A stretch of 64,000 bases of DNA, taken from positions 1,860,001 through 1,924,000 of the forward strand of contig NC_013791.2 of the NCBI RefSeq assembly GCF_000005825.2, in the 5' to 3' direction. Every line of letters starts with the position of its first letter. The stretch's first letter is position 1. Origin of the DNA: Alkalihalophilus pseudofirmus OF4 (GTDB lineage: Bacteria > Bacillota > Bacilli > Bacillales > Bacillaceae_D). Of the stretch, positions 2,733 to 57,295 are shown piece after piece. The position numbers and the translations under genes were made by a program. Under the pieces are notes generated by a model that saw only the letters and a list, made by a program, of their open reading frames with translations, had not been told where the DNA came from and made no database searches.

Positions 2733-2918
2733 TAATTGTATTATTGCGGCAAGTAATTGAGTTGGTTGCTCGAGTTATTGCGCAGCTTTTCGGCTTAATT
2801 GAGTTGGTTGAGCGACTAATTGCGTCAGTCGGCTGTAATTGCGTCAGTTGCATTGGGATATGCGCCCGTTCAGTGAGGAATTGTATAGACTTTTGATATA
2901 ATTGCGTCCCCCTACCTG
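2733..2918 (+). repeat. Nine-unit phased dispersed repeat, copy A
   Basis: Intergenic array of nine degenerate units resembling TAATTGCGTCAGTTG. Units start at 2733, 2754, 2775, 2796, 2817, 2836, 2858, 2878 and 2899, a spacing of 21-21-21-21-19-22-20-21 nt. The same spacing occurs in copies B, C and D of this window. Unit 7 starts ATATGCG and unit 8 has ATTGTA, as in other copies. It sits between the divergent arsR-type and carbonic anhydrase genes. An open frame across it has no coding features. Confidence 0.85.
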
Positions 2919-3067
2919 CTCTAACTCCCTCAATGGTCTCAGGCTTTATTAGTACGCTTTTAGTCGGTTCTTACTTACTTTATCTGTCATAGATTTTTCA
3001 CATGATTCCGTTCCAATTTTTAGTATGGTAGTTGCTGGGAGTATTAACAGAGAAAAGGAGAGAGAGA

Positions 3068-3895
3068 ATGATGAAAAGGAAATCTATTTACTTATTAGTC
3101 GCTGCAAGTTTGGCATTAGCGGCTTGCGCAGAACAAACAGAAACCGCGCCTGTAGAAACCCCACCAATCACAGACTCGACGGAACCTAGTGATGAAACTC
3201 AGGAGGAATCTACTGAGGAACTTACGGAATGGTCTTATGAAGGGGAATCTGGACCTGAGCATTGGGGTCATTTACACGCTTCTTATTCGGCATGTGTTGA
3301 TGGCAGTGAACAATCACCGATTAATATTGATTTGGCTGAAATGGAGGCAAATCAACAAATAGAGGAGATTGATATTCAATACGAGCCTGCTTCTTTTTCA
3401 CTCGTTAACAATGGTCACACGATTCAAAAGAATGCAGTTGATGAGAATAATGCGATCACGTTAGATGGACAAGAATATCAGTTAGTTCAATTTCATTTCC
3501 ACACTCCAAGTGAACACCAATTTAACGGAGAGCATTATGACATGGAGCTGCATCTTGTACATCAAGATATTAATGGCAATCTAGCAGTCTTAGGTGTGAT
3601 GATTGAAGAAGGTGCGGAAAACGAAGAGCTCGCGCCTGCATGGGGAGAGCTGCCGGAAGAGGAAACAGAAAATGAGGTTGCATTAGAGGAGCCTATCAAC
3701 CTTCAAAATCTCTTGCCTGATGACCAATCCTCCTTCCATTACAACGGATCACTAACTACCCCGCCATGTACGGAAGAAGTAAAATGGATTGTATTCAAAG
3801 AGCCAATTCAAAAATCAGCGGAACAAATTCAAGCATTCCAAGAGATTTATGAAGAGAACCACCGCCCGGTTCAGCCTTTGAATGAACGAGGGTAA
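3068..3895 (+). CDS. Alpha-class carbonic anhydrase, lipoprotein
   Basis: Extracytoplasmic carbonic anhydrase (CO2 + water to bicarbonate + proton), 275 residues. The signal peptide ends in a lipobox LAAC with the lipidated Cys at residue 20, followed by a Thr/Glu/Pro-rich linker to about residue 58. The alpha-CA domain follows, with the zinc-ligand motifs QFHFHTPSEH and ELHLVH and the hallmark SLTTPPC near the C-terminus. I chose the ATG at 3068 (GGAG about 8 nt upstream) over a TTG 36 nt earlier that would add residues before the signal peptide. Single-gene unit with its own terminator. Acidic composition fits an exposed surface protein. Confidence 0.93.
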   Translation: MMKRKSIYLLVAASLALAACAEQTETAPVETPPITDSTEPSDETQEESTEELTEWSYEGESGPEHWGHLHASYSACVDGSEQSPINIDLAEMEANQQIEEIDIQYEPASFSLVNNGHTIQKNAVDENNAITLDGQEYQLVQFHFHTPSEHQFNGEHYDMELHLVHQDINGNLAVLGVMIEEGAENEELAPAWGELPEEETENEVALEEPINLQNLLPDDQSSFHYNGSLTTPPCTEEVKWIVFKEPIQKSAEQIQAFQEIYEENHRPVQPLNERG

Positions 3896-3938
3896 ACTAT
3901 TAAATAAGGTATTATATTTAAATCATTAAACGAGAAAG

Positions 3939-3971
3939 AAACCGACCTTCTTTTATTTAAAAGGTCGGTTT
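3939..3971. terminator. Bidirectional terminator between carbonic anhydrase and catD
   Basis: Perfect 11-bp stem AAACCGACCTT / AAGGTCGGTTT with an 11-nt loop, lying between two convergent genes. The minus-strand tail (TTTCTTTCT) is more T-rich than the plus-strand tail. Confidence 0.8.
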
Positions 3972-3979
3972 AATTAGTT

Positions 3980-4411
3980 TTATGCGCTTATTCTTGTACT
4001 CGAATTTTCGTTTTTGTTTCCAAAGAATTTATTGTCCAATGCAAGCAGTTTGCTGCCACTAATAACAAGGGCAGCTGCCATTGCCAATAAAGCTATGTCT
4101 AATTCATAACCTGCTGCTGCTTCTGCACCCATGAAACCGAGTGGTAATTTGACCATAAAGATCGCCCCTAGCATGATGAATCCAATCAATGCAGAAATTA
4201 TTCTTGTGCCAACTCCTAGGATTAAGGCAATTCCACCAACAAGCTCAATGCTCGCAACAACATAACCGAAAAAGCCCATAATACCGATACTTTCAAACCA
4301 CCCTGCTACGTTACCAAGCCCCATTTGAAACTTATCAATCCCGTGAATTAAAAATGTCACTCCTAATACGACACGAATTATTAATAGACTTACTTCAAAT
4401 TTTTGTGCCAC
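3980..4411 (-). CDS. catD: DoxX family membrane protein (CatD-like)
   Basis: Integral membrane protein, 143 residues, four hydrophobic segments, with the DoxX-type start LLIIRVVLGVTFLIHGIDKF and a glycine-rich second helix. In B. subtilis, CatD (DoxX family) works with the catechol dioxygenase CatE against catechol and quinone stress; here the gene follows a catE-like gene by 117 nt on the same strand. The order catE-catD is the reverse of B. subtilis. Starts at GTG with AGAGGAG 8 nt upstream. Orthology is inferred from family plus neighbourhood. Confidence 0.75.
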   Translation of the reverse strand: MAQKFEVSLLIIRVVLGVTFLIHGIDKFQMGLGNVAGWFESIGIMGFFGYVVASIELVGGIALILGVGTRIISALIGFIMLGAIFMVKLPLGFMGAEAAAGYELDIALLAMAAALVISGSKLLALDNKFFGNKNENSSTRISA

Positions 4412-4528
4412 TGTTCATTCTCCTCTATGTTTCTTAATTTCGTTTAAATAGAATTTTACTTATCGAATCTAGCTTTTATCCAAATGTTTTTACTATTTTC
4501 ATTCCAACTTCAATAGGTAGGGAGCCTT

Positions 4529-5383
4529 CTATTGTTTTGCTATCAACCGAATGCGATTTCCTGAAGGGTCTACAGTTACAGTAGAACCCTCGTCTTCTAT
4601 TACGGTTGCTCCGATTTCTTTTAACTGTGTAATAATTTGATTTCTCTTTTCCTCACTTGAGAGCATAAGATCAAATGATTCGAGTCCTACACTATTTAGC
4701 GGCGGTGTCGGAGCCCCTACCCCAGCCCACGTATTTAACCCGATATGATGATGGTACTGTCCATCTGCAATGAAAAGCGCCTGACTGCCGAATCGATTGA
4801 CAACCTCAAAACCAAGACCCTTGATATAAAACTCTTCAGTCTTTCTTAGTTCTGATACATGTAGATGGATATGGCCCATGACTGTACCTGCCGGAAGGCC
4901 TTTCCATGGCTGCTGTTTATGCGTTGTTAAAAGATCAGGGAAATTCAACGGATCAACTGCCATTTGTACCTCTCCATTGCTCCAGCTCCACTCGGATGGG
5001 TCTCTGTCTACATAGATCTCAATACCGTTTCCATCTGGATCAGATAAATAAAGAGCCTCACTTACAAGATGGTCAGAAGAACCTAACTGTACGTCATGTC
5101 TCACAAAATGATGGACAATCTGAGCTAAATCCTCTCGCTTTGGCAGAAGGAGAGCAAAGTGATATAAGCCCGTCGTTCTTGCTTGTTTTGGAACGACTTG
5201 GTCTGGTTGTTCTACTGATAATAATGCTGTTGTTCCATCCGCTGTGAATACGGCGGATCTGGGCGTTTGGTTTAGCACTTTAAACCCAATCACTTCTTTA
5301 TAAAAAGCAATAGAACGGTCTAAATCTTGTACTTTAAGGTTTACTTGACCTACATATGTAGTAGGCTCACGATGAAAATTCAT
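4529..5383 (-). CDS. catE: Catechol 2,3-dioxygenase, VOC superfamily (CatE-like)
   Basis: Two-domain vicinal-oxygen-chelate enzyme of 284 residues, the length of B. subtilis CatE, which opens the catechol ring and protects against catechol toxicity. The N-terminal VOC module includes YHFALLLPKRE and ALYLSDPDGNGIEIY (about residues 75-125); the C-terminal module has the metal-ligand stretch GHIHLHVSELR and HHHIGLNTW. The start is an ATG with AGGAGGT 8 nt upstream. A strong sigma-A promoter with a palindromic operator precedes it, and an HxlR regulator is divergent. Confident on family; catechol as substrate follows from close motif agreement with CatE. Confidence 0.85.
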   Translation of the reverse strand: MNFHREPTTYVGQVNLKVQDLDRSIAFYKEVIGFKVLNQTPRSAVFTADGTTALLSVEQPDQVVPKQARTTGLYHFALLLPKREDLAQIVHHFVRHDVQLGSSDHLVSEALYLSDPDGNGIEIYVDRDPSEWSWSNGEVQMAVDPLNFPDLLTTHKQQPWKGLPAGTVMGHIHLHVSELRKTEEFYIKGLGFEVVNRFGSQALFIADGQYHHHIGLNTWAGVGAPTPPLNSVGLESFDLMLSSEEKRNQIITQLKEIGATVIEDEGSTVTVDPSGNRIRLIAKQ

Positions 5384-5430
5384 TATAGTTACCTCCTGAA
5401 AATCCGAATAGATTTACACGTTTTATAATC

Positions 5431-5478
5431 AACTTACTTTATGTAAGTTAGTATATAATTGTAATTATATGACGTCAA
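5431..5478 (-). promoter_or_regulatory. catE promoter and candidate CatR/HxlR operator
   Basis: On the minus strand TTGACG (5473-5478) and TATACT (5450-5455) are separated by 17 nt, a near-consensus sigma-A promoter. Immediately downstream is a perfect palindrome AACTTAC-N5-GTAAGTT (5431-5449), covering the expected start of transcription. A second AT-rich palindrome ATATAATT-GT-AATTATAT (5453-5470) fills the spacer. A repressor bound to the first would block initiation; the divergent HxlR protein is the obvious candidate. Confidence 0.75.
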
Positions 5479-5553
5479 GTAACTTTTTGATATAAAATAA
5501 TTTTATTATTTCTCGTAGCAGTTTATAATATGTGAAGTGAGGAGTTGATTGAA

Positions 5554-5862
5554 TTGGATAAGTCGATTTGTCCTAGATTTGAAAAAGCTATGGGTTTAAT
5601 GAGTCAAAGATGGACAGGTTTAATCATTTACCAGCTTCTAACTGGTCCACAGCGTTTTTGCAGTATTGAATCGGCAATCGGTGTCAGTGGAAGAGTCCTC
5701 TCAGAAAGGTTAAAGGACCTTGAAAACGAAGGAATTGTAAAACGTGAAGTGTTTCCAGAAACTCCCGTTCGAATCGAATATTCTTTAACTAAAAAAGGAA
5801 TTTCACTTGAGCCTCTCATGCGAGAAATGGAAAGATGGTCACAAGACTGGTTAGAAGCATAA
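5554..5862 (+). CDS. catR: HxlR family transcriptional regulator (CatR-like)
   Basis: Regulator of 102 residues that is essentially one HxlR winged-helix domain. It has the family start CPRFEKAMGLMSQRWTGLII, with Cys near residue 5 (the redox-sensing Cys of B. subtilis CatR and YodB is at a similar place), and the wing VSGRVLSERLKDLENEGIVKR. I prefer the TTG at 5554, which has GAGGAG 9 nt upstream; a TTG at 5545 touches that box. Divergent from catE, with the operator-like palindrome in between, so probably the quinone-responsive repressor of catE-catD. Direct orthology to CatR is not proven. Confidence 0.82.
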   Translation: MDKSICPRFEKAMGLMSQRWTGLIIYQLLTGPQRFCSIESAIGVSGRVLSERLKDLENEGIVKREVFPETPVRIEYSLTKKGISLEPLMREMERWSQDWLEA

Positions 5863-5898
5863 TGTGGGAGATATATTTCTTAGAGTAAAGTTGAACAT

Positions 5899-5932
5899 AA
5901 AAAATAACCGTCTAATGAGGCGGTTATTTTTT
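5899..5932 (+). terminator. Terminator after catR-like gene
   Basis: AAAATAACCG stem pairing with CGGTTATTTT, continued inward by TCT/AGG pairs to a 4-nt loop, with a terminal T-run. Can act in both directions, towards the convergent gene at 5994. Confidence 0.85.
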
Positions 5933-5993
5933 ACTGGTGAAAGCGACGAAAAAATGAGAGGAACGAATTAAGTTTCAGTCTTTCTTTTTATTT

Positions 5994-8591: not shown

Positions 8592-8595
8592 TTAA

Positions 8596-17385: not shown

Positions 17386-17412
17386 GAGAGAACTGAGTTA
17401 TACAGTTCTCTC
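17386..17412 (-). terminator. Hairpin, possible terminator of the AAA+ operon
   Basis: Perfect 10-bp stem GAGAGAACTG / CAGTTCTCTC with 7-nt loop; on the minus strand followed by TTTAAATTTA, a weak tail. If it ends the operon at 17669, phased repeat B lies inside the 3' untranslated region. Confidence 0.6.
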
Positions 17413-17427: not shown

Positions 17428-17613
17428 TAATTGTATCTTTTCACCCACTTATTGCGTGGCTTCCAAAGTTTATTGCGCGCCTCTTCGGCTTAATTGCGTT
17501 GGTTGAGCGAGTAATTGTGCCACTCTCTTTGAATTGCGTCAGTTGCGAGCGGATATGCGTTGGTCTAGCGCAGGATTGTATTAACTTTCACCATAATTGT
17601 GCCGGTTGCCTGT
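17428..17613 (+). repeat. Nine-unit phased dispersed repeat, copy B
   Basis: Units start at 17428, 17449, 17470, 17491, 17512, 17531, 17553, 17573 and 17594: spacing 21-21-21-21-19-22-20-21, identical to copy A. It is locally very close to copy A (for example TTATTGCG...TCTTCGGCT, then TTGGTTGAGCGA). Intergenic, downstream of the 17669 stop codon. Confidence 0.87.
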
Positions 17614-17668
17614 CCTGGCACTGCTCCCCTGCCCCGTGCCATGCACCCAACACCGCGCTCATCGTCCC

Positions 17669-18268
17669 CTAAGGCAACACGCTCGGCGTCAGTGTATACG
17701 CATTAGCCCCGCCTGGTGCGACGGCATTGAAAATCGTGTATTTCCGCTCTGGGAATTTGACTGCATACGTTGCCTGGCCTTCTAGTCCTTGAATGGTGAC
17801 AACACTTGGGACAGGGACGCTGTATGCTGCGGCATTTGATGTGAGCGTATGGCTTTCACGGATGATTTGTCCGTCTACCATGATCTGTACTCGGTCCTCA
17901 CTGTCACCGGTGAAGTCCCAGATCAGCATACGCGCCGTGCCCCCGTCAAAGTTGCCTACAGCAAAATCTTGTGAATTTAGTGCTACTTGGCTTGCATCAT
18001 CTAGTACAAAGCCTGACTCCATTTCAGTCGATGTACGGTTTGCGATTTCATCTAATGCTGCTTCATCTGACATCGTACCTGAGGAGAAGGCCATGCCTGA
18101 GATCGTAAGGATTAACGCCAAGAGTCCGATTGCTGTTCGTGCCAGTTTGGCCGATGGGGTCAGTTCTCTTTTCTGACTAGATCCCTCCCGCTCTTCATTT
18201 ATCAAGTTTTTCACTTGGCTCGCTTTATCTTGCTTCTTTTCGTTATGCATATATGGTCGCTTGTTCAT
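17669..18268 (-). CDS. Single-pass membrane protein with external beta domain, AAA+ operon
   Basis: Protein of 199 residues with a charged cytoplasmic N-terminus (about 1-42), one membrane helix at about 44-66, and an extracytoplasmic part rich in short beta segments (MLIWDFTGDSEDRVQIMVDG, YSVPVPSVVTIQGLEG). No known family recognised. Its ATG directly follows the TAG of the upstream gene, so it is the last gene of the tight four-gene operon. It may be the outward-facing or sensor part of that system; this is inference from topology. Confidence 0.7.
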   Translation of the reverse strand: MNKRPYMHNEKKQDKASQVKNLINEEREGSSQKRELTPSAKLARTAIGLLALILTISGMAFSSGTMSDEAALDEIANRTSTEMESGFVLDDASQVALNSQDFAVGNFDGGTARMLIWDFTGDSEDRVQIMVDGQIIRESHTLTSNAAAYSVPVPSVVTIQGLEGQATYAVKFPERKYTIFNAVAPGGANAYTLTPSVLP

Positions 18269-18715
18269 CTACATCGCCCTCCTGTTTGCGAACAGAGATG
18301 AGGCTGGATGACGGTGAAACCACCATGACATCAGTACTCTTACTCCAATGAAGCTTACAATTGCTAGGAAGATCGCAAAGCCTTTTGAAGGGAAATTATG
18401 CTCTGCCCAACTATTCAAAAAGGTCGCTCCAAGCCCAAGGCCGATTAGCATAAATAGCCCCATTTGCAAGATTGGCCAGAGAATCGGCCACTTTGTATAA
18501 ATCCAGCTTAAGGTCTCTATTCGGATTGATAAATAGAGGAAGAAGCTGCACAGACCGATCATGAACAGATAGACAGACCCGGTTGGTGTTCCGTATTGCA
18601 GCATCGTCCGTATATCATCAATGGCCAAAAACGGACCAATGAGGATACTTACAGCAATAAAGAAGAAAAACGGATAAAAGACCAGCCTTCCGCCGACACG
18701 TAATAAACGCATCAT
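18269..18715 (-). CDS. Four-helix membrane protein, AAA+ operon
   Basis: Integral membrane protein of 148 residues with helices at about 10-30, 42-62, 76-97 and 105-127 and a basic C-terminal tail. No family recognised. The ATG overlaps the TGA of the giant AAA+ gene by 4 nt, indicating coupled translation. With the next gene it gives the system a membrane component, a plausible docking site for the ATPase. Confidence 0.7.
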   Translation of the reverse strand: MMRLLRVGGRLVFYPFFFFIAVSILIGPFLAIDDIRTMLQYGTPTGSVYLFMIGLCSFFLYLSIRIETLSWIYTKWPILWPILQMGLFMLIGLGLGATFLNSWAEHNFPSKGFAIFLAIVSFIGVRVLMSWWFHRHPASSLFANRRAM

Positions 18716-21700
18716 GCGATCTCCTCCCTTCTAGAGACATCTTCTTTTGTGATCGTAATTAATTCTTCAAGCTCTGCATCAGGGACATCCATCAGTCTGA
18801 CGGAATGCTTGCGGATGGTCGCTTCCATTAAATTACGGACAAATCGCCCGTTGCCTCCGGATGCCTTTGCTGTTTCCATTTCACATTGCTCACGAATCGC
18901 CTCAAGAGCACCAGCCTCTATTTTGTAGCCTTTATGCGTGAACATCACGTTGGCAATTTTCACGAGCTCATCTGTTGAATAGTCAGGAAAGGCAATTTGA
19001 TGTGGGAAACGTGATCTTAACCCAGAATTTGACTTCCAGAATTCCGTCATTTCCTTTTCATAGCCGGCAACAATGACCACGAGCTCTCCTTTTAAATCTT
19101 CCATTGCTTTTACGATCGTATCAATCGCTTCTTGCCCGAATTGATCACCAGCCAGGCTGTAGGCTTCATCAATAAATAAGACGCCGCCTCTTGCCTCATC
19201 GATGATTTGTTTCGTTTTTAAGGCCGTCTGTCCGACATATCCAGCTACGAGACCGCTGCGATCGGTTTCAATTAAGCGGTCTGTCGCTATGACACCGAGT
19301 TCATGCAAGCGTTTAGCCGCTATGCGGGCGATGGTCGTCTTCCCTGTTCCTGGGTTACCGGTAAATGACATATGCAGACTTTGCCCGCTGATCTCAGGCA
19401 GGTTCAACGCCTTGCGCCTTTCGTTCATTGCGACTTGAGCAAAAAGATTTTCCATAAAGGTTTTCACATTTTGCAAGCCAATAATGTCATTTAACTGCTC
19501 CTTAGCCTGATCCTTGTTTTCTGTTTCCGCGTGGATGTCGAAATCTTCTGCTTGCAGCTCGATCAGTGCTTCAGGTTCATTTGACTCTATTTCAGCAATA
19601 CGCACTGACTGTCTTCGAATTGCTGCTTCTAATTCATTTCGAACCATCCGCCCATTTCCAGCCGCTTCACGATCGGCTGCTTGCTTCTTTCTAAAGGCCT
19701 CTTCAAGCTCTGTATCAAGCTCATGTGACAGCAGGAAACCACGGTGCTTGGTTAGGATATGAAGCATCTGTACAAGCTCCGTCGCCGTATAATCCGGAAA
19801 GTGAATATGCAGCGGAAAGCGCGAGTATAAGCCCGCATTGGTATCGAGTAATTTTTTCATATCGTCTTCATATCCTGCTAAAATGACAATCAAATTATCT
19901 TTATGAATTTCCATCAGCCGAACAATCTCGTTAATCGCTTCTTCCCCGTAGCCGCCGTGTCCGTCGACTAACGCATACGCCTCATCAATAAACAGCACAC
20001 CGCCAAGGGCTGACTCGACGACACTCTTCGTTTTTTCTGCCGTTTGACCAGCATAACCGGAAACGAGCTCACTTCTTCCGACTTCAACAAGATGCCCTTT
20101 TTTCAACACACCAAGCTCCTTCATCATGCGAGAAAGGGTTCTGGCGATCGTTGTTTTACCTGTTCCTGGATTTCCGGAGAACACCATGTTTAACACCTGT
20201 TCTGTGCGGATGGTATGGCCCGCTTCTTTTCTGCGTTTATTCGCAAGAAGCTGTTTCTCAAGCGTGCGGATCACATTTTTCACCGAATCTAATCCGACAT
20301 AAGCTGAGAGCTCTTCCTCAAGATCAAAATTGTGAGTATCCGTGATACCAAAGTCTTCCACTGTTAACAGTTGATAGTCGGCAGCTTCTTCCTCGTTTAC
20401 TCTCACCGATTGCTTGCGGATGGCTTCTTCTAATACGTTACGAACTAGGCGGCCGTTGCCGCTGTCATTACGGCCAGGAATTTGTTTTCGTTCAAATAGT
20501 TCAATTAAAGGTTTCTTCGACTCTTGATCAAGCTGGTAATCACGCTTTTGCGCCATTAACTCAAGCATCGTATAAAGTTCGTCGGCTTGGTAATCTGAGA
20601 ACTCAACTTGAAACGGGAAGCGTGAGCGCAGGCCAGGATTTGTTTTAAGAAAACCTTCCATTTCCTGCGTGTAACCTGCTAAGATAACGACTAAATCTTC
20701 ACGGTGATCTTCCATCCCTTTTACCAATGTATCGATGGCTTCCTGCCCGAAGCTGTCATGCTGATTTCTTGAAAGAGCGTAGGCCTCATCAATAAAGAGC
20801 ACCCCGCCTAGAGCTTCTTGGATTTTGCTCATCGTTTTTGGTCCAGTGTGACCAACATATTCTCCGACTAAATCCTGACGAGCGACCTCAACAAGCTGCC
20901 CTTTCGATAGAATACCCAGTCCTTTTAATATGTAGGAAATGAGTCTCGCAACCGTTGTTTTACCCGTACCAGGATTCCCAGAAAAGATCATATGAAGCGT
21001 CAGCGGAGTCGTTGATAAGCCCCTCTCTTTTCGCTTCATTTGCAGTTCAACCGTTTTCGTAAGTTCATGTACAAAAGTCTTCACTTCGGCTAATCCAATC
21101 AAGCTTTCGAGTTCATTAAATGCCTGCTCCACTGACGCTGCTTCTGCTTTTTCTAATGTGAGAAGCGGCTGTGCCTGACCTTCAATGTAAATCGCATGTT
21201 CAGCTGTGATGAGACGAGCCTGGTTATCTAATTGACCCCGGGCACGAGCTGCGACGAGACTGTCAATAAGCTGAATGCTGATCCATCTCTTTAAAGCACG
21301 GCCGTTTTCTTCAGCCTGCAAGGATAGCTCTGCTAATAGTTTTGCCACCGCATCATCATAGGTAATTTGTTTATTTGTGAGCTCGGCTACTTGTGACTGG
21401 GCTCGTTGCAGCATTAGATCTGCTATTTTTATGAGATGCTCGAGCTCTAACGGCTTTGTATGCAAGTGATCAGTGATATGTGACCGAATCGATTCTGGCA
21501 GATCTCGTTCTCTTTCAGCAATAAAGACGAGTCTATGATTTGCAGCATCAATCATGACGCCTGCTTCTGTTCGGAAATAGCCATTTTTCACTAATTGCTC
21601 TAAGTTAGTTAAAACCTGTGTATGTGCTTGGGTGATTCCTTTAAATACAATCGTTGAGCCCCCGTAGGAGAAGGCGCTTGAGAAATCTTTGACGAAATTA

Positions 21701-22224
21701 GAGTGTATATCTTTTTCACTGTAGAGGCTCACATCGAGTGTAATAACTTGCTGGTTGTTTAGCAGTTTATGATGATGAAGCATCTTAACGACTTCCGTCA
21801 ATCCTTCCGTTTTACCTGTTCCGATCGGCCCTGTCACAGAGATCACTTGGGCCCTCCCGTCAAGGCTTCCCTCAAGTAAGTATTGCTTTTTAAACCATAA
21901 GACAAGATCTTTCATATACTCCTTTTGTCCATATACACGCTGGCCTGCAGATGTTTCAACTAGATGAAATAATTGATCAATTTCTTCTTTATAAAGTCTT
22001 TTTCGTGAAGACTTCTCTTTGCCTGACTTTGTTGTTGAAACGGGCAGGATTGTCTCGCTTTTATGCTGAGAAGGGGCTGGCCTCATTGCTTCTAGTCCGC
22101 TTGGTGTGTGTGCTGCATGTGTCCCCGGCACTCTTGCATGCGCCTGATTTTCTTTTGTGTTGCGTTTAAAATCTAATAACTGTAATTCTGGTAAGATGAT
22201 CCGCGACCACTTTTTCCACATCAT
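18712..22224 (-). CDS. Giant AAA+ ATPase with three tandem CbbX/EccA-like domains
   Basis: Cytoplasmic protein of 1170 residues. Three CbbX/SpoVK/EccA-type AAA+ domains follow each other: Walker A GNPGTGKT at about 416, 684 and 956; Walker B VLFIDEAY at about 475, 743 and 1015; pore-loop motifs EYVGHT, GYAGQT, GYVGQT; arginine motif SRFP. An N-terminal region has a further P-loop GPIGTGKT at about 132 but no clear Walker B acid pair, so it may be a degenerate ATPase. Residues about 30-75 are a low-complexity linker. The ATG at 22224 follows AAGGAGAT; a frame extending to 22287 would overlap the DUF4236 gene. Family members remodel protein complexes; substrate here unknown. Confidence 0.9.
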   Translation of the reverse strand: MMWKKWSRIILPELQLLDFKRNTKENQAHARVPGTHAAHTPSGLEAMRPAPSQHKSETILPVSTTKSGKEKSSRKRLYKEEIDQLFHLVETSAGQRVYGQKEYMKDLVLWFKKQYLLEGSLDGRAQVISVTGPIGTGKTEGLTEVVKMLHHHKLLNNQQVITLDVSLYSEKDIHSNFVKDFSSAFSYGGSTIVFKGITQAHTQVLTNLEQLVKNGYFRTEAGVMIDAANHRLVFIAERERDLPESIRSHITDHLHTKPLELEHLIKIADLMLQRAQSQVAELTNKQITYDDAVAKLLAELSLQAEENGRALKRWISIQLIDSLVAARARGQLDNQARLITAEHAIYIEGQAQPLLTLEKAEAASVEQAFNELESLIGLAEVKTFVHELTKTVELQMKRKERGLSTTPLTLHMIFSGNPGTGKTTVARLISYILKGLGILSKGQLVEVARQDLVGEYVGHTGPKTMSKIQEALGGVLFIDEAYALSRNQHDSFGQEAIDTLVKGMEDHREDLVVILAGYTQEMEGFLKTNPGLRSRFPFQVEFSDYQADELYTMLELMAQKRDYQLDQESKKPLIELFERKQIPGRNDSGNGRLVRNVLEEAIRKQSVRVNEEEAADYQLLTVEDFGITDTHNFDLEEELSAYVGLDSVKNVIRTLEKQLLANKRRKEAGHTIRTEQVLNMVFSGNPGTGKTTIARTLSRMMKELGVLKKGHLVEVGRSELVSGYAGQTAEKTKSVVESALGGVLFIDEAYALVDGHGGYGEEAINEIVRLMEIHKDNLIVILAGYEDDMKKLLDTNAGLYSRFPLHIHFPDYTATELVQMLHILTKHRGFLLSHELDTELEEAFRKKQAADREAAGNGRMVRNELEAAIRRQSVRIAEIESNEPEALIELQAEDFDIHAETENKDQAKEQLNDIIGLQNVKTFMENLFAQVAMNERRKALNLPEISGQSLHMSFTGNPGTGKTTIARIAAKRLHELGVIATDRLIETDRSGLVAGYVGQTALKTKQIIDEARGGVLFIDEAYSLAGDQFGQEAIDTIVKAMEDLKGELVVIVAGYEKEMTEFWKSNSGLRSRFPHQIAFPDYSTDELVKIANVMFTHKGYKIEAGALEAIREQCEMETAKASGGNGRFVRNLMEATIRKHSVRLMDVPDAELEELITITKEDVSRREEIA

Positions 22225-22244
22225 TCTTATCTCCTTAACCTGTT

Positions 22245-23306
22245 TTAACGAATCGGCTGGAATCCCTTCGTTTTTAAGAATTTCCATGCCGGATCATACC
22301 CAGCTACTGCAGCTTTGGCATCAATATGTTCAAACCGCTTAGACTCCATTAGAGCACGGGTAAATGTCACTTCTATTAATCTACTATTCTTGTGATGACC
22401 ATCAGCTGGATCCATGCGCCTCTCCTCTACATGACAATGAACCGACGTGACATCTGGCAATGCATGCAGGCAGTCGCGCGCTGCTTTTAAGAGAAGAGAG
22501 CAAATGAATTGCTGATATAAATGATAGTAATTGGTTTTCGTATGTGCCTTTCTTGAAAGCTTTCCTGTCTTCGTTAAACTAAACGTCTCATCAGGAATCA
22601 CATCATCGTTTACTAAAAACGTCAAGATCACTTCACTTTTATCAATCGGCACAAGCTCTACAGCGGCACCATATTCTTCTGCTGTTTGGAAAAGGTCGGT
22701 TTCATCGAGTAATTCCTTGTATACTTCTACTCCGCCAGCAGCAAGAGTTTGTGCTTTTTTGACACGGTTAAGCCAAGCGGCATAGCTCTCTTTATCCTTT
22801 AAGATGGCATGTTCCAGCTTTTCCTCAAGCTCAGCCATTTCCTTCGCTTCTTTTTTTAGCAGCCGCGAAAAAAAGGACGGCTTATATTGTTCAATTTCTC
22901 TTCGTGCATCCGTCTCGATTGGCCCCATTTCACCTATTGAAAATGGCGGTGTTTCACTTGCTTTTTCCTTCCAATTAATCGGTTCTGACACACGTAAATG
23001 GAGTTCTTGTAATGCTTTTATGTGTTGTTCGTATTCTTCTACAAGTTGAGAGGCTTCATTAGATTGATCCGTTGCTTTTTTACTCAAAGCCTGGCTTGAG
23101 TTCGTTTTCCTTCCTTTCGCAGAGGAATGAGACTTAGAGTAGGACATACCTGTTCCTGGTATTCCCGCAGTCGTTGTCCGTCTTCCGCTCGTGTTAATAG
23201 AGTGTCTGAACCCTTTTCCTCCTAAACTTAATCCAATTGATTTTTTACTGACATTTATTCTTACGCCTGGAGCGATTTTCTTACTTCGCCGAAATCTGAA
23301 GGCCAT
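22245..23306 (-). CDS. DUF4236 protein with long C-terminal extension
   Basis: Protein of 353 residues. Residues 1-55 match DUF4236 (FRFRRSKKIAPGVRINVSKK and the glycine-rich stretch ending TAGIPGTGMSYS). A Ser/Lys-rich linker follows, then a coiled-coil-like segment (about 145-185) and a mixed alpha/beta C-terminal domain not recognised. DUF4236 modules occur in bacteria and phages and have no assigned function. First gene of the operon, 20 nt before the AAA+ gene, so it is a candidate partner or substrate of that ATPase. GGGGAG lies 10 nt before the ATG. Confidence 0.82.
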   Translation of the reverse strand: MAFRFRRSKKIAPGVRINVSKKSIGLSLGGKGFRHSINTSGRRTTTAGIPGTGMSYSKSHSSAKGRKTNSSQALSKKATDQSNEASQLVEEYEQHIKALQELHLRVSEPINWKEKASETPPFSIGEMGPIETDARREIEQYKPSFFSRLLKKEAKEMAELEEKLEHAILKDKESYAAWLNRVKKAQTLAAGGVEVYKELLDETDLFQTAEEYGAAVELVPIDKSEVILTFLVNDDVIPDETFSLTKTGKLSRKAHTKTNYYHLYQQFICSLLLKAARDCLHALPDVTSVHCHVEERRMDPADGHHKNSRLIEVTFTRALMESKRFEHIDAKAAVAGYDPAWKFLKTKGFQPIR

Positions 23307-28270: not shown

Positions 28271-28456
28271 TAATTGTATGTATTGAACTGATTATTGCTC
28301 TGCTTGCCGGTGCAATTGCGTTGGTGTTCGTCTTAAATGCTCCTGTTGAGAGTGTAAATGCGTCGATTCTCACTTATTGCGCCAGTATTGATACTATATG
28401 CGCGGATATAGTTTGTTATTGTATTCACTTATGTATTAATTGCGCCCGTTAATACC
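28271..28456 (+). repeat. Nine-unit phased dispersed repeat, copy C
   Basis: Units start at 28271, 28292, 28313, 28334, 28355, 28374, 28396, 28416 and 28437: the same spacing 21-21-21-21-19-22-20-21 as copies A, B and D, with more diverged units (TAATTGTA, TTATTGCT, CAATTGCG, TAAATGCT, TAAATGCG, TTATTGCG, ATATGCG, TTATTGTA, TAATTGCG). Lies between divergent genes. Confidence 0.86.
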
Positions 28457-38711: not shown

Positions 38712-38743
38712 ATAAAAAAGAGCTGATCCTTGTCAGCTCTTTT
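38712..38743. terminator. Bidirectional terminator after the 39.5-38.9 kb gene group
   Basis: 11-bp perfect stem AAAAGAGCTGA / TCAGCTCTTTT, 6-nt loop, minus tail TTTTTTATG. It lies about 190 nt after the stop at 38935; phased repeat D fills the gap and would be in the 3' untranslated region. Confidence 0.82.
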
Positions 38744-38752
38744 GAGGTTTGG

Positions 38753-38938
38753 TGATTGCACCTTTTGAGAGGTTAATTGTGTTGGTTAAGAGGGATATTT
38801 CTCTAGTCTACTGTTTTATTGCGTCGGTTGAATGTTTATATGCGCTTATGTGGCTCAATTGCTCCTATTCATTTTAAGGATGTGTCAGGTGAAAGTTTAA
38901 TTGTCTCTACTTCCTGACCAATTGCGCCAATTACCTAC
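38753..38938 (+). repeat. Nine-unit phased dispersed repeat, copy D
   Basis: Units at 38753, 38774, 38795, 38816, 38837, 38856, 38878, 38898 and 38919 reproduce the spacing 21-21-21-21-19-22-20-21 exactly. Units are the most diverged (TGATTGCA, TAATTGTG, ATATTTCT, TTATTGCG, TATATGCG, CAATTGCT, GGATGTG, TAATTGTC, CAATTGCG). It was recognisable mainly from the spacing. The last unit touches the stop codon at 38935. Confidence 0.8.
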
Positions 38939-39243
38939 CCCTTTATACGGTTTAATCTCACATTTATTGTATTTAATATAAATGTGATGATAAGCAGCAC
39001 CGTAGCAGCAAGCACGACACCGCCAGCTGTATCATAAATGGCACTTATATCTTCAATTCTAACAAGATGATAGCTATACAGGATTTGACAAAAAAGGGCG
39101 ATGGCACACGCGCTTAAACTCATGATTGAATAACTAGCCCAATTTTTATTTGGCTTTCTTTTATCACGCATAATACTGATTACGGGCAGGAACCACGCAG
39201 TCAGTCCAAGCACGAGGCTCCCTACATTCAACCAGTCTGCCAT
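38935..39243 (-). CDS. Three-helix membrane protein, unknown
   Basis: Protein of 102 residues with helices at about 5-22, 37-58 and 72-92. A basic loop (RDKRKPNKNW) lies between helices 1 and 2. The start overlaps the upstream gene's last base. No family recognised. Probably the last gene of the operon containing 39243-39512. Confidence 0.6.
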   Translation of the reverse strand: MADWLNVGSLVLGLTAWFLPVISIMRDKRKPNKNWASYSIMSLSACAIALFCQILYSYHLVRIEDISAIYDTAGGVVLAATVLLIITFILNTINVRLNRIKG

Positions 39244-52987: not shown

Positions 52988-54229
52988 GTGTTTATCGCAT
53001 TAGTCTTTTTTTTATTTATGTCATTTTTCTTATCTGGCAGTGAAACGGCATTAACAGCAGTTAATAAAACAAGAGTCCAATCAAGAGCAGAAAATAATGA
53101 TATAAAAGCTCAAAAGCTTTTAGAGTTAATTTCTAAACCAGATCAATTTATCACAGGCATCCTAATAGGTAATAATATTTCAAACATTATGCTCCCTACT
53201 CTTGTTACCATTATTGCTATTGAGTATGGAATTAATATTGGTATAGCTACTGGAATCTTAACCGTCGTACTCATTATTTTTGCAGAAGTACTGCCAAAAT
53301 CGGTCGCTGCCACTTTTTCAACAAGAATTGCTTATCTCGTCGCTCCAGTCATTAGGGTATTAATAGTATTATTTAAACCACTCATTTATTTATTATCTAA
53401 ATTTACAAATATCGTCATTAACATTCTTTCAAAGGGAAACAATGAAGAAAACGGATTTTCTAAAGAAGAAATCAAAACCATGGTTGACATTGCCTTAACG
53501 GAAGGAACTTTTGTTAAAGAGGAATCACAACGAATTAAGGGAGCAATTGATTTTTATACAAAGGATGTTCGAGATGCACTTAAAACCCCTCGAACAGAAA
53601 TTGACGGACTTCCTTGCAATGTGACTTTCGAAGATGCGAGACAAATAGTCATGGAAAGTAATTATACCAGGTACCCAGTATATAAAGATAATATGGATAA
53701 TATTGTTGGGGTGTTTCATTCTAAGCTTTTGCTTAAGTGGTCATTAAATCCTTCAATGGAAATAAAAGATTTTATGGATAACTCCCCTCTTTTTGTTACA
53801 GAATTTATATCCATCGAGAGAGTGTTCAAAATGATGCTGAAAGAAAAAAAGCACTTAGCTATTGTAATTGATGAATACGGCGGTACGACTGGGATCATTA
53901 GTCATGAAGATATTATTGAAGCAATGATAGGACAAGACATTGAGGATGAGACAGATGATGCAGGAGAAGTGTTAATACAGGAATTAACCGACACCCATAT
54001 TACATGCAATGGTAAACTAACGATTCGTCGGTTTAATGAAATATTTAAAGCAAAAGTTCCAGAAGAATTTGATACAATCTCCGGATTTATTTACAAAGAA
54101 CTCGGTCATATTCCTAATGAAGGTGAAACCTTTGAGTTCCATCATCTACATTTTGAAGTTAGAGAAATGAACGACAATAAGATAGTCCAAGTAAGAGTAA
54201 CAAAAAAGCTTAAAACACAGCTTGAATAG
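52988..54229 (+). CDS. CNNM/CorC family membrane protein with CBS pair
   Basis: Protein of 413 residues. DUF21/CNNM membrane domain (about 1-180, SGSETALTAVNKTR at the first loop, FAEVLPKSVAATF), then two CBS motifs (about 195-315, including VTFEDARQIVMESNYTRYPVYK and DEYGGTTGIISHEDIIEAMIG). A C-terminal CorC-HlyC domain (about 330-413) follows. The family transports or regulates Mg2+/divalent cation flux. GTG at 52988 has CGGAGG 8 nt upstream; a GTG at 52979 overlaps that box. Confidence 0.92.
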   Translation: MFIALVFFLFMSFFLSGSETALTAVNKTRVQSRAENNDIKAQKLLELISKPDQFITGILIGNNISNIMLPTLVTIIAIEYGINIGIATGILTVVLIIFAEVLPKSVAATFSTRIAYLVAPVIRVLIVLFKPLIYLLSKFTNIVINILSKGNNEENGFSKEEIKTMVDIALTEGTFVKEESQRIKGAIDFYTKDVRDALKTPRTEIDGLPCNVTFEDARQIVMESNYTRYPVYKDNMDNIVGVFHSKLLLKWSLNPSMEIKDFMDNSPLFVTEFISIERVFKMMLKEKKHLAIVIDEYGGTTGIISHEDIIEAMIGQDIEDETDDAGEVLIQELTDTHITCNGKLTIRRFNEIFKAKVPEEFDTISGFIYKELGHIPNEGETFEFHHLHFEVREMNDNKIVQVRVTKKLKTQLE

Positions 54230-54250
54230 TTCAAACGAAAAAGGTGCTAT

Positions 54251-54284
54251 GGTGCTATCTAAAACAAATGATAGCACCTTTTTT
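54251..54284 (+). terminator. Terminator after cnnm-like gene
   Basis: GGTGCTATC / GATAGCACC stem, 10-nt loop, tail TTTTTT. The left arm's GGTGCTAT is duplicated in tandem just upstream (54243-54258), so two alternative hairpins can form. Confidence 0.87.
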
Positions 54285-54396
54285 CCAGAAAATTCATGAA
54301 AAACTGTTTAATAATTATAAGTTATATAGATAATCTCTCATCATTTTCACTGAAGTGAATCCAGTTTTATTTAAATTAGCTTGAATAATCATTCCC

Positions 54397-54948
54397 TTAA
54401 TCCTGATAGCAGCGTTCATATGTATTCTTCATTAATATACTTTTACATGCCCACCCATTTTCGTGATAAATCTCTTTTTCAATGTTTAACGTGATACTTC
54501 GGTCTGATCCTGGATAGTCAGGTTCATCATTTATAATAGAAAGAGTTTTTTCATCCTTCCATTGCATTGAAAAATCACTTTTCGCATCAGCATAATAAAC
54601 AATATTGGTCTTATTTTCTTCAAGATTAGTCTTTTCAACCCACACATTCACACCACCTACAGCCCCTCCATATGGTTCATAATATGCCTTTACACTGTAT
54701 TTTTCAGAGGGAGAAATGATCGGTCCAGGTCCTTTTTGAGTATATTCATCATTTATTCGATCAAATGAAAAAAAGTAAACCCTATGTATGTAGATAGAGA
54801 AAAGCAAGACCACTCCTGTTAACGTTGCTATAAATAATTTCTTCGGAAAAGCCTTACTTTTAACTCTAGAATAAATGAATTGTGCAGTGAAAAGTAAAAA
54901 TAAAGTAAACGTTGTTAGTAAAATGAAAATGGTGAATAAAATGAGCAT
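54397..54948 (-). CDS. Membrane protein, DUF5412-like
   Basis: Protein of 183 residues with two N-terminal membrane helices (about 3-27 and 37-58) and an external domain containing ISPSEKYSVKAYYEPYGGAVGG, reminiscent of DUF5412 proteins of Bacilli (SP-KY-v-aYy-GG pattern) from recall. Two cysteines lie in the C-terminal part (WACKS, YERCYQD), possibly a disulfide. Function unknown. Confidence 0.62.
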   Translation of the reverse strand: MLILFTIFILLTTFTLFLLFTAQFIYSRVKSKAFPKKLFIATLTGVVLLFSIYIHRVYFFSFDRINDEYTQKGPGPIISPSEKYSVKAYYEPYGGAVGGVNVWVEKTNLEENKTNIVYYADAKSDFSMQWKDEKTLSIINDEPDYPGSDRSITLNIEKEIYHENGWACKSILMKNTYERCYQD

Positions 54949-54978
54949 GCTTGCCTCCTAAAAATATTAACTGAAGAA

Positions 54979-55806
54979 TTAGTCTTTTTTGTGGATTCCA
55001 TGTAACCACTCTTCAATCATTGGCAGAACGAAGTCGCGCTTCTCTATATGGAGCAAATGACCTGCATTATTAATTGCAACATATGATTTGTTTGGAAACT
55101 TCTTAAAATAATCTAAGTGATCTTGACATCCACAAATATGGTCTTGCTTCCCGACAATGATTAATACTTTATGGTTTGCCCCTGCAACCTTTGCTAGAGG
55201 CATTTCGGAAAATAAATAATGATTCTCTTTCCACTCAGTATTTATGACGTCTTTATTTATAAGCATTCTTCCAGGTTGAATTTCGTCTATAAATCGTTGT
55301 GCGTTTACACTGTTTTGATACGTGACTAAGGAGTGATACGCATTTTTTACATCTGCATTCCATTGCTTAATAATAGGTTCGTCTGTACGATCTGAAACCA
55401 TTGTTTGCATTGGAAGATTTCTTTCTTTTAGGTGCAATACTGGCGCAAGGAGGCATAGACTTTTAACTTGATTTATTTTACGATCTAAAATTCCTTGTGC
55501 AATATATCCTCCAAAAGAGCAGCCAATCATCGAAAATTGTTGTTTATCCATCATCATATCAATAAATTCGAGTACATTTAGCAGCATTTCATCGGTTGTC
55601 TTTAGTTGATGAGAGGCGGTGCTTTCACCATGTCCTGGGAGATCTATATAAATTCGTTGAAAACCAGTACATCTCTTGAACAGTGGTTCTAACCATAGAT
55701 ACATAGAGCGATAGTCTGTACCTAAAGGATGGAGAATTAATATAGGAGTTCCTTCTCCTTCTATCTTATAGTGAATCGTACCCTTTGAAGCATGACAAAT
55801 ACCCAT
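54979..55806 (-). CDS. Alpha/beta hydrolase
   Basis: Hydrolase of 275 residues. Nucleophile S97 in GCSFGG, acid D223 in VGKQDHICG, and H251 in NNAGHLLHIEK form the expected triad. Oxyanion segment HPLGTDYRSM is at about 26. The cap region is about 120-200. No signal peptide. Ester, lactone or epoxide substrate cannot be told. Starts at ATG with AAGGAGA upstream; monocistronic. Confidence 0.88.
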   Translation of the reverse strand: MGICHASKGTIHYKIEGEGTPILILHPLGTDYRSMYLWLEPLFKRCTGFQRIYIDLPGHGESTASHQLKTTDEMLLNVLEFIDMMMDKQQFSMIGCSFGGYIAQGILDRKINQVKSLCLLAPVLHLKERNLPMQTMVSDRTDEPIIKQWNADVKNAYHSLVTYQNSVNAQRFIDEIQPGRMLINKDVINTEWKENHYLFSEMPLAKVAGANHKVLIIVGKQDHICGCQDHLDYFKKFPNKSYVAINNAGHLLHIEKRDFVLPMIEEWLHGIHKKD

Positions 55807-55928
55807 GAATTCATCTCCTTATTGCCTGCTCGATCGTAAATTCCACACTTCCTTAGTTAGCTATACCCCATATTATACATTTAGTGGTAATATAAAGGAA
55901 TGAATGTTCAGTCAAAAGGAGAATCGTA

Positions 55929-56330
55929 ATGAGTAATCGGATATATACAGCAACACAAATTTCAGCGGCTGGATTCTTCATTTTAATGCTCGTCAAAGAC
56001 TTTTTCCCTGCTGTTCCAGTTAGTATGACAGTGGCTGCCTTAGGCGTAGTTTTTTCTATTTTGCTTAGTGTGGTTTTCCGGCCAAAAGGTAAACCTGTCT
56101 TTCAGTCTGCTAAGCAGGAATTGATGTTTATTATCGTAACAAGCGCTGGTTTTTTCGGTTTGTTAGCTTTGCTGCCTGTTTTTGGCGGTACATCAGAAAG
56201 AGGAATCAGTGTCACAAGCCCAATCCTCTGGGGAGTCTTTCTGATTAGCCTATTTACTGCATATAATCGATATAAAAAAGAAAAACAACAGTCTACTTTC
56301 CCGAGAGGAGCTCATCAAAATGAGTCGTAA
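55929..56330 (+). CDS. Membrane protein, unknown
   Basis: Protein of 133 residues with about four hydrophobic segments and a hydrophilic tail. AAAAGGAG lies upstream of the ATG. Overlaps the following lipoprotein gene by 11 nt, so translation is coupled. No family recognised. Confidence 0.65.
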   Translation: MSNRIYTATQISAAGFFILMLVKDFFPAVPVSMTVAALGVVFSILLSVVFRPKGKPVFQSAKQELMFIIVTSAGFFGLLALLPVFGGTSERGISVTSPILWGVFLISLFTAYNRYKKEKQQSTFPRGAHQNES

Positions 56331-56952
56331 GAAGATCACTGCTCTATGTATAGCGGGCTTGCTAACACTTTTTTCTGCAGGATGCTCAACTGGAGTGTTT
56401 CAATCTAATAACAATCCGACAATCAAAGCAGCGCCAAATTCTGATTATGTAAAGGCGTTTGAAGCGATGCATCTAGGAATCTTATTTGATTTTGAACTTT
56501 ATGTTCCTGATGCTGATAAGAGATGGGTGAACCTTTGGGTGGAGAGATATCATATGGGTGAATTAGATCCTGAGCCGCTCACACACCTTTCATACGGCAG
56601 TCAACCTTCAGATAAATCAGAAGGTCCTTTAGGTTTTGGGTTAATCAATCCGAATACAGAAGATCCTCTTATCTTCCTTTACGCTCCGGGAGTCAGTATT
56701 ATCCCATCATCAATTGAAGAGAAACTTCAAGCTGAGGCTGGGGTGGCGAGTACATGGGATTATGCCATATCTGAAGATAAAGCGAAAAATGTAGAGCTAG
56801 GTGAAACCGTTCTTTTAGCTGCCTATAGACAGTCTTCTAATGGCTCGATCTCTGGCTTTAATTTTGAAAATGAGGAAGATCTAGAACAGATGGTAAAAAA
56901 ACATACGACGGTGTTGCTGCTGAAAATGAAGATTGAGGAAGATATAGAGTAA
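56320..56952 (+). CDS. Lipoprotein, paralogue of the broken gene at 41939
   Basis: Lipoprotein of 210 residues, signal peptide ending in SAGC (Cys22). The mature part contains FDFELYVPDADKRWVNLWVE and RYHMGELDPEPLTHLSYG, shared in pattern with the pseudogene (FDFTTGSEFNELDVWIEKYEFGKLVDEP). Function unknown. Coupled to the small membrane protein gene upstream. It shows what the intact form of the 41939 gene should look like. Confidence 0.75.
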   Translation: MSRKKITALCIAGLLTLFSAGCSTGVFQSNNNPTIKAAPNSDYVKAFEAMHLGILFDFELYVPDADKRWVNLWVERYHMGELDPEPLTHLSYGSQPSDKSEGPLGFGLINPNTEDPLIFLYAPGVSIIPSSIEEKLQAEAGVASTWDYAISEDKAKNVELGETVLLAAYRQSSNGSISGFNFENEEDLEQMVKKHTTVLLLKMKIEEDIE

Positions 56953-57028
56953 GCAGTACATTTACTTATGCATAATTCTTCCTCTTGTTGAAGACACTAC
57001 TCTCATATATGAGAAGGAGGTTTTCAAC

Positions 57029-57193
57029 ATGTCCACTGGTAAAAGCCATAATCATAAGCGAAAAGGTCATCCGGGTGCCTTTCCTGAAGGCAGCGAAAAC
57101 GTGCAGGCTAAAAATACGGATACTAAAACACCTGAAGAAGAAGGATACTTATCTACAAAAGAAGCATTTAAAAACCGTGTAACTGAGGAATAA
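57029..57193 (+). CDS. 54-residue hydrophilic protein
   Basis: Small gene with GAAGGAGG 7 nt before the ATG at 57029. Translation begins MSTGKSHNHKRKGHPGAFPE and ends FKNRVTEE. Very charged, no hydrophobic segment; basic/His-rich N-terminal half, acidic C-terminal half. Composition is compatible with spore-associated or DNA-binding small proteins of Bacilli, but I do not recognise a family. A longer frame on the same strand (56985-57182) is out of phase and lacks a ribosome binding site. Confidence 0.65.
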   Translation: MSTGKSHNHKRKGHPGAFPEGSENVQAKNTDTKTPEEEGYLSTKEAFKNRVTEE

Positions 57194-57212
57194 GATTGGA
57201 AGCTGCGGCCTG

Positions 57213-57295
57213 AGATTGTAGGATTTCAGGCTGTTTATGCGTTGGTTCGTTAGGTTATTGCGCGGGTCCCTCGCGTAATAGTGCCGTTTGCTGAA
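57213..57295 (+). repeat. Phased dispersed repeat, truncated copy E
   Basis: Units at 57213, 57235, 57255 and 57276 show the last three intervals (22-20-21) of the nine-unit pattern, with TTATGCGTTGG as the unit-7 equivalent. The first five units are missing or replaced by the end of the 54-residue gene. A possible remnant of unit 5 at 57193 is off by 1 nt. Confidence 0.7.

Follow-up and report, generated by a model that had tools for sequence, protein, structure and literature searches.

The window, as we call the whole stretch of 64,000 nucleotides of the Alkalihalophilus pseudofirmus OF4 genome analysed here, contains four full copies (at 2733, 17428, 28271 and 38753) and one partial copy (at 57213) of a repeat array, all on one strand and all intergenic, as the original prediction had described. 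A position profile built from 46 arrays that all lie outside the window placed copies A, B, C and D at exactly these four positions, with scores of 138.6, 149.1, 111.4 and 92.4, against a maximum of -59.7 across 40 dinucleotide-shuffled windows and of -82.4 on the minus strand of the window. Tandem Repeats Finder, at score 30, reported none of the five arrays, which it overlooked because they are too degenerate. The features are as follows:

2733-2914, plus strand: array A, nine units with steps 21-21-21-21-19-21-21-21, between diverging genes
17386-17412: inverted repeat GAGAGAACTG...CAGTTCTCTC, preceding unit 1 of array B (by eye from the sequence)
17428-17611, plus strand: array B, nine units, unit 9 towards the 3' end of the gene at 17669-18268 (minus strand)
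28271-28454, plus strand: array C, nine units, between diverging genes
38714-38743: hairpin with A-run and T-run, directly before unit 1 of array D (by eye from the sequence)
38753-38936, plus strand: array D, nine units, the most diverged copy; its final bases adjoin the end of a weak gene call at 38935-39243 (minus strand)
57213-57293, plus strand: array E, a partial copy limited to units 1-4 (model positions 5-85)
57302-57334: hairpin with an A-run before and a short T-run after it, lying between truncated array E and the end of the called gene at 57473-58579 (minus strand) (by eye)

Array E had been said to keep the last three intervals of the full copies; those that it retains are the first three. 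The common orientation and the recurrence every 10-19 kb hold locally, within the window; genome-wide, the arrays lie on both strands with very uneven spacing.

A profile search of the contigs of the Alkalihalophilus genome, in which 150 of 752 candidates were scored so that match counts are lower bounds, gave at least 84 matches at E<1e-5, all on the main contig; none of the 92 matches scored fell on the two smaller contigs. The chromosome carries one nine-unit element in about 80 copies, whole or partial, and some of these have lost units and persist as fragments. For the analyses below, 87 matches were condensed into 83 arrays by merging three neighbouring pairs and leaving out one weak match (L080:4078), and the 70 copies of at least 150 bp are termed long arrays. 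Arrays are distributed very unevenly along the chromosome, with none detected between 2.10 and 3.10 Mb. A tie between array orientation and replication was set aside as weak, the count being 46 to 56 of 83 depending on where the terminus is assumed to lie.

The spacing is kept beyond the copies in the window. The modal step pattern, 21-21-21-21-19-21-21-21, is exact in 50 of the 70 long copies (42 of 70 when the spacing is left free), and 64 of the 70 have 19 as their fifth step. The pattern first proposed, 21-21-21-21-19-22-20-21, was right in its first five steps and its last, while its 22 and 20 come from a register at unit 7 that was off by one base. The unit consensus comprises about 8-13 degenerate bases with a core of the WTGCG/TTGCG type; judged on this consensus the arrays are not CRISPR arrays, which have near-identical repeats of more than 20 nt, unique spacers and cas genes. 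A coding repeat was likewise rejected, as the 19-bp steps break the frame and only 7 of 83 arrays overlap weak short ORFs, the remainder lying between genes. Position-specific variants are common to the copies, units 1 and 8 favouring TTGTAT, which points to descent from one array.

It had been suggested that no described family matches these arrays. Tandem repeats of 20-21 nt, constant in size and variable in sequence, have however been published for Bacillus and Paenibacillus, with the proposals that a protein polymerises on the DNA in a nucleoid role or that the repeats are transcribed as small RNA, and with the remark that their size equals two helical turns (Subirana and Messeguer 2021, PMC8161180). 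As described in the portions of that paper considered here, they share with our arrays a 20-21-nt unit of constant size and variable sequence, a short core common to most arrays of a species, a mostly non-coding location, many arrays per genome and species specificity. Assigned from the step sizes and unit counts found here rather than with SATFIND, the program of Subirana and Messeguer, our arrays belong to this class: seven of the eight steps of the modal array are 21 (period 20-21 nt), nine units are typical, with smaller fragments also occurring (at least four repeats), the arrays lie between genes and contain frame-breaking 19 steps (non-coding), and sequence varies at constant size across species, the 21-nt unit of a same-genus genome and the units of other Bacillaceae being different. 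The 52-nt tandem repeats of Bacillus (PMC8161180), compared by description alone, are similar in their constant size and variable sequence and differ in period. The same portions of that paper give no fixed unit number, fixed 19-nt step, polar gene-end placement, in-unit AT phasing or substitution data, and a word-start search confined to its main text found '19 nt', 'pseudofirmus' and 'TGCG' absent. New with respect to the published class are the nine-unit architecture, the 19-bp step, the gene-end polarity and the selection. The published repeats are enigmatic, being constant in size and obscure in function; the A. pseudofirmus genome holds a standardised version, in which about 80 copies show a usual number of units, one fixed defect, gene-end polarity and measurable selection, and such a standardised element makes the question of their function testable.

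The AT content of the arrays peaks every 10.5 bp, with a power of 5.9 against 1.1 at 21 bp, and in 9 of the 11 further species that were sampled the 10.5-bp harmonic is likewise the stronger of the two. Within the unit, AT falls at positions 2-4 and T at positions 12-13, about 10 bp apart. This dominant periodicity bears out the earlier proposal that the units face one side of the helix, with the 19-bp step shifting the phase by 2 bp. A wedge model predicts that the arrays bend by 92 degrees, as against 45 for shuffled sequences and 46 for flanking ones, and replacing the 19-bp step by 21 raises the prediction from 92 to 114 degrees; the idea that mid-array dephasing creates curvature was rejected, since the 21-bp centre is the more bent in this model. 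A 'leap-step' idea, in which 19-bp steps correct helical drift, was weakened by array means of 20.2 to 20.94 and by the existence of pure 21-bp arrays, in a survey whose search pattern selected arrays with one 19 step each, and also by the finding that recurring 19-bp steps in other Bacillaceae mostly follow superunit duplication.

The arrays are placed at gene ends, a feature that the first reading of this DNA had missed. According to gene calls, 68 of 79 arrays have their unit-9 side turned towards the end of a converging gene. Converging genes enclose 38 of the 79, and 3 are at divergent junctions, a class that makes up 77 of 282 sampled gaps; arrays A and C, between diverging genes, are exceptions to the rule. 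In tandem gaps, 30 arrays run against transcription vs 8 along it (P=0.0005). A GC-rich hairpin lies no more than 110 bp away on the unit-9 side of 38 of the 70 long arrays and on the unit-1 side of 9, the criterion being a stem of at least 8 with 5 G-C pairs and no T-run required, so that these are not counts of terminators. The TGYG core of the units resembles a transcription-pause consensus; a sense-strand pause element was discarded, as the tandem-gap arrays lie mostly against transcription and a pause requires no fixed spacing.

Placement and orientation also bear on whether the array might act as RNA, forming a 3' UTR or small RNA that ends at a shared bidirectional terminator and binds protein or RNAs via UUGCG repeats. 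Of 79 arrays, 46 have a gene next to unit 1 that runs into them in the sense direction, often with no terminator seen between gene and array (by eye in 40 arrays; a hairpin is there in 9 of 70), and satellite transcripts have been reported from B. coagulans (PMC8625621). We nevertheless consider this quite unlikely: 33 of 79 arrays lack an upstream gene in the sense direction, nothing is conserved before unit 1, and phasing at 10.5 bp is a property of duplex DNA. For 30 of 79 arrays, the genes on either side are both transcribed against the array, so that no sense transcript is expected. In keeping with the original doubt about an RNA structure, RNAalifold predicts no pairs over 87 aligned copies and, for a set of 14 copies, 12 weak pairs with no compensatory one among them. 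Rfam gave no match in the window at gathering level, and array B at a lax threshold gave one chance-level miRNA match only.

The E. coli REP/BIME elements, palindromic stem-loop units with proposed roles in supercoiling and nucleoid organisation, resemble the arrays in being intergenic, sited at gene 3' ends and present in dozens to hundreds of copies; unlike those palindromes, the units here are direct repeats, with no pairs predicted over the 87 copies. BIME elements have reportedly been proposed as preferred sites of gyrase, and the arrays might be preferred gyrase or topoisomerase sites, as gene ends and converging genes gather positive supercoils and phased, bendable DNA aids wrapping. 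The 38 arrays between converging genes, the helical AT phasing, the predicted curvature and the 2-bp phase slip near the array centre would fit such sites. Gyrase, however, is two-fold symmetric with a footprint of about 140 bp, whereas the units all run head to tail, their TTGCG-type cores are constrained, and arrays elsewhere reach 35 units, far over one footprint; we regard this possibility as very unlikely.

A same-place array was found in this genome for 27 of 32 A. marmarensis arrays sampled. Per-position rates come from 27 pairs, of which the comparison of cores, spacers and indels drops three (one at a contig end and two non-orthologous across the array). Between the two genomes, substitution rates are 0.070 in cores and 0.141 in array spacers (P=3e-14, sites taken as independent); other non-coding flanks diverge at 0.074, below the spacers and barely above the cores. 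The least-changed unit positions are 2 (9/231) and 12 (7/228). Indels of 1-2 nt are depleted in arrays, with 29 per 4427 array sites vs 55 per 4996 non-coding flank sites (P=0.028). The selection on geometry originally proposed is thus upheld, in that spacing is held genome-wide and short indels are depleted though spacers differ at 0.141 per site.

The geometry might instead be inherited and not needed, if the arrays were a satellite-like or selfish repeat that arose by unit slippage and block duplication, spread, and was tolerated only at gene ends, where it breaks no promoter or operon. The position-specific variants shared among copies, the superunit duplication behind most recurring 19-bp steps in other Bacillaceae, the fragments left by losses and the fast-evolving spacers all speak for such an origin, and gene-end placement is the outcome expected of purging. 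Purging alone, however, does not lead one to expect the 30:8 strand bias, and spacing persists despite diverged spacers, with cores and short indels constrained between species and same-place arrays matching 27 of 32. In addition, flank conservation is at most 0.2 bits per position, array B as query found no phage or plasmid match, and the one A. marmarensis array locus read in detail is array-less in this genome but retains a remnant unit 9, leaving no clean empty site. We therefore consider a selfish repeat unlikely. These last three observations also led us to reject a mobile element, and the flanks and the remnant unit 9 to reject a MITE or insertion sequence, which would have terminal inverted repeats, target duplication and clean empty sites.

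Head-to-tail protein-binding repeats at helical spacing are known from iteron- and centromere-like arrays (sopC, parS, plasmid iterons), which occur in one or few copies, usually beside the cognate gene; our arrays share the head-to-tail repeats and helical spacing and differ in their about 80 dispersed copies. The best explanation, which we hold at just short of an even chance, is that the arrays are DNA-level protein assembly sites at transcription-unit ends. It builds on the observed geometry, AT phasing, constraint, placement, restriction to the main contig and absence of RNA pairing, from which we infer protein binding, polymerisation or wrapping, and a boundary role. Nine head-to-tail units, each touching two successive turns of one helix face, would draw in the protomers of a DNA-binding protein that has a direction and associates with itself, a candidate that would cover about 190 bp as a filament or a wrap, the single step of 19 bp lying near the centre. 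Such complexes, at gene ends and often just outside a hairpin or between converging genes, may act as a boundary that stops read-through, holds supercoils or anchors nucleoid loops. The 1-Mb stretch without copies is odd for a general boundary. The assembly-site model leaves unexplained the fast spacers and the cores near the flank rate, and the lower predicted bend with the 19-bp step, the unit number that is not general, the persisting fragments and the position of arrays A and C between diverging genes also count against it.

It is conceivable, though doubtful, that the arrays belong to a previously undescribed chromosome system of the Bacillaceae, in which a directional DNA-binding protein would assemble in defined register, as a filament or wrap, on helically phased WTGCG-type arrays at transcription-unit ends, the Alkalihalophilus standard being nine protomers, one 19-bp step and about 80 boundary points. 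A survey of array lengths and steps covered 39 of 80 listed loci (35 presumed to be Bacillales loci and 4 of the 10 A. marmarensis loci, with 35 loci of other groups left out), with gene calls based on codon statistics trained on the A. pseudofirmus genome; the cross-genome profile search scored 43 candidates per genome, making its counts lower bounds. In other genomes the unit number ranges from 4 to 35, often with 21-bp steps only, so nine is not general. Units in other Bacillaceae differ in sequence, and spacer identity there peaks at lags 2-7 in most arrays tested. The scan of one further genome of the same genus gave 24 hits in 240 kb, of which two were read as arrays and the others as noise, and 10 hits in 140 kb of array-free stretches of the A. 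pseudofirmus genome; these two arrays have five units each, of a different sequence, at 21 nt.

Nine-unit arrays occur in the window as four complete copies (A, B, C and D, starting at 2733, 17428, 28271 and 38753) and one truncated copy (E, at 57213). The unit consensus is close to TAATTGCGTCAGTT, with the strongest conservation at ATTGCG and at T12. A gapless profile, built only from 46 arrays of the same genome outside the window, scored A–D at 138.6, 149.1, 111.4 and 92.4; the maximum was −59.7 in 40 dinucleotide-shuffled windows and −82.4 on the window's minus strand. The original prediction had placed the units at identical offsets with steps of 21-21-21-21-19-22-20-21; these offsets are correct for all but unit 7, where the 22/20 is a one-base register slip. 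Copy E, which had been read as the last three intervals, instead represents units 1–4, the 5' part of the array, by its model positions.

A sequence-only search model derived from 14 copies allowed mapping of the array across the Alkalihalophilus pseudofirmus OF4 genome. We found at least 92 places at E≤1, including 84 at E<1e-5, these counts being lower bounds as scoring covered only 150 of the 752 candidates from the first look. All matches lie on the 3.86-Mb contig (dnaA at position 837); the two smaller contigs (285 kb and 105 kb) have none. Among the 70 long copies (at least 150 bp), 50 have exactly the spacing 21-21-21-21-19-21-21-21 when fitted to a template with penalties, and 42 do when each step is free to vary between 17 and 25; with free spacing, 64 of the 70 have 19 as their fifth step. 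The fixed spacing proposed from the window copies thus extends genome-wide, as do the position-specific unit variants: TTGTAT is favoured by units 1 and 8, ATATGCG by unit 7 and TAATTGCGCC by unit 9. Since the units have position-individual sequences, the copies stem from one array. No shared sequence was found around the arrays (at most 0.2 bits per position).

Comparison with A. marmarensis, the nearest genome, showed how the arrays change. Sampling of A. marmarensis yielded 32 arrays, and for 27 of them A. pseudofirmus has an array at the matching place; three of the other five fall outside the fetched DNA, one is array B with a rearranged flank, and one is a remnant with only unit 9 left in A. 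pseudofirmus. In the reverse case (L083:4042), A. pseudofirmus carries an array and the model found none in A. marmarensis. Over 24 orthologous pairs, differences number 135 in 1924 core sites (the conserved unit positions) and 353 in 2503 spacer sites, with 858 in 17591 coding and 371 in 4996 non-coding flank sites; over 27 pairs, position 12 differs in 7 of 228 cases and position 2 in 9 of 231. Indels of 1–2 nt are rarer in arrays (29 in 4427 sites) than in the non-coding flanks (55 in 4996; P=0.028), supporting the proposed selection on geometry. Indels of 3–17 nt number 14 in arrays and 60 in non-coding flanks, and longer ones 5 in each. The array is a genuine, genome-wide, selected DNA element of fixed geometry.

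Array spacers diverge about twice as much between the two genomes as other nearby non-coding DNA (0.141 vs 0.074), one possibility being ectopic exchange between arrays. Beside one site in A. marmarensis where the model detected no array (A. pseudofirmus has one there), L166:2550-2690 carries a direct repeat (CGAAAGTGTAACACCTCTTAACATTCCCGGGCACCATTCTAT) of roughly 42-bp period. Past array B, the A. marmarensis DNA resumes at the equivalent of window 22235. About 4.6 kb of the window (17614-22234) is thus absent there or moved; this segment holds most of gene 18712-22287, whose protein has three stretches matching the SpoVK family.

With respect to genes, we placed 83 arrays using a simple gene finder, with both neighbours known for 79. 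Oriented from unit 1 to unit 9, 38 lie between converging genes, 30 have both genes against the array, 8 have both with it (30 vs 8, P=0.0005) and 3 lie between diverging genes; the gene past unit 9 ends toward the array in 68 of the 79. Diverging gaps are scarce (P=1e-6) next to their share among 282 sampled gaps of 150 bp or more, where 77 are diverging; this sample includes the array gaps themselves. Two of the three diverging exceptions are window arrays A and C. A GC-rich hairpin, counted with or without a T-run, occurs no further than 110 bp from the unit-9 end in 38 of 70 arrays and from the unit-1 end in 9, against a background of 50 of 218 gene ends overall and 22 of 600 random 110-mers. 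In the array sequences inspected, many of these hairpins have an A-run ahead and a T-run behind, resembling bidirectional terminators. Along the contig the copies are unevenly spread (chi-square 69.5 in 20 bins, the last one short): none was found in the full megabase from 2.10 to 3.10 Mb, and they are dense on either side. In 120 kb sampled from this megabase, 16 of 18 converging gaps are shorter than 130 bp.

Within the unit, AT content is dominated by the 10.5-bp harmonic (units registered on positions −1 to 7 only, in arrays found with the full profile), in line with the suggestion that the units lie on one helical face. This harmonic also exceeds the 21-bp one in 9 of 11 other species sampled. 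In these species the scoring itself imposes one AT block, and three have a 5.25-bp harmonic that is stronger still. Arrays have a predicted bend of 92 degrees; shuffled sequences give 45 and flanks 46. RNA structure had been judged unlikely, and indeed zero pairs were predicted across 87 copies.

Although no described family had been known to match the array, PMC8161180 describes constant-size tandem repeats of 20–21 nt and 52 nt in 176 Bacillus genomes, a class that takes in these arrays. It calls such repeats abundant in Paenibacillus, points out that 20–21 nt equals two helical turns, and proposes either a protein polymerising on DNA or small-RNA transcription; satellite transcription in B. 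coagulans is reported in a passage of PMC8625621. A term search of PMC6749651 returned no mention of the 20–21-nt class. Fixed architecture, gene-end placement and selection data were not found in the parts of PMC8161180 covered here, and its supplements or a 2020 J. Bacteriol. paper may partly report them. The array is a standardised variant of this published, as yet unexplained class. A putative directional protein-assembly site at transcription-unit ends is the best supported of the proposed readings.

Matches at E≤0.01 occur in 21 of 59 related genomes, strong only in A. marmarensis and often as one weak match; better ones are in G014, G018, G044, G025, G041 and G017. Chains in relatives contain 4 to 30 units, mainly at 21-bp steps (20 and 21 alternate in G025), with a WWWTGYG-like core that the search itself favours. 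The model missed G002, another genome of the genus, in which a motif-free autocorrelation scan (sensitivity 45 of 70 known arrays, with numerous false matches in coding DNA) detected two 5-unit 21-bp arrays in 240 kb; on the opposite strand their unit is TTTGCGCGAAAA, with TTGCG present again. Scanning the collection for four WTGCG at 21-19-21 gave at least 106 stretches, the 80 listed comprising 10 from A. marmarensis, 35 taken as other Bacillales and 35 from other groups. Among the matches listed, 36 arrays from these 35 other-Bacillales loci have steps of 21 (421), 19 (88, at least 36 of them imposed by the search pattern), 20 (37) and 22 (5), and only 2 of 29 lie between diverging genes. 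Recurring 19-steps in Bacillales arrays mostly trace to block duplication. A second 21-bp array family, with a unit near GTGAAATTCTTGAATAACGCA, was seen in G014, from another family of the order, at L291:15547-16148.

A second dispersed repeat (GAAGCTAGACARGAAAAGCGG...), in pieces of 55–362 bp with 82–99% identity, was found in the fetched stretches:

L118:2641-3000, second dispersed repeat
L118:16391-16790, second dispersed repeat
L070:15816-16183, second dispersed repeat
L070:6879-7021, second dispersed repeat
L103:4309-4688, second dispersed repeat
L088:14905-15040, second dispersed repeat

Its pieces lie 7–295 bp from an array, save L070:6879 at 1074 bp; this nearness may reflect sampling, the repeat being known only from stretches around arrays. 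Rfam gave no match at the repeat in L070, L118 and L103. Elsewhere in L070, at 3537-3919, a cspA thermoregulator RNA matches above the Rfam gathering score.
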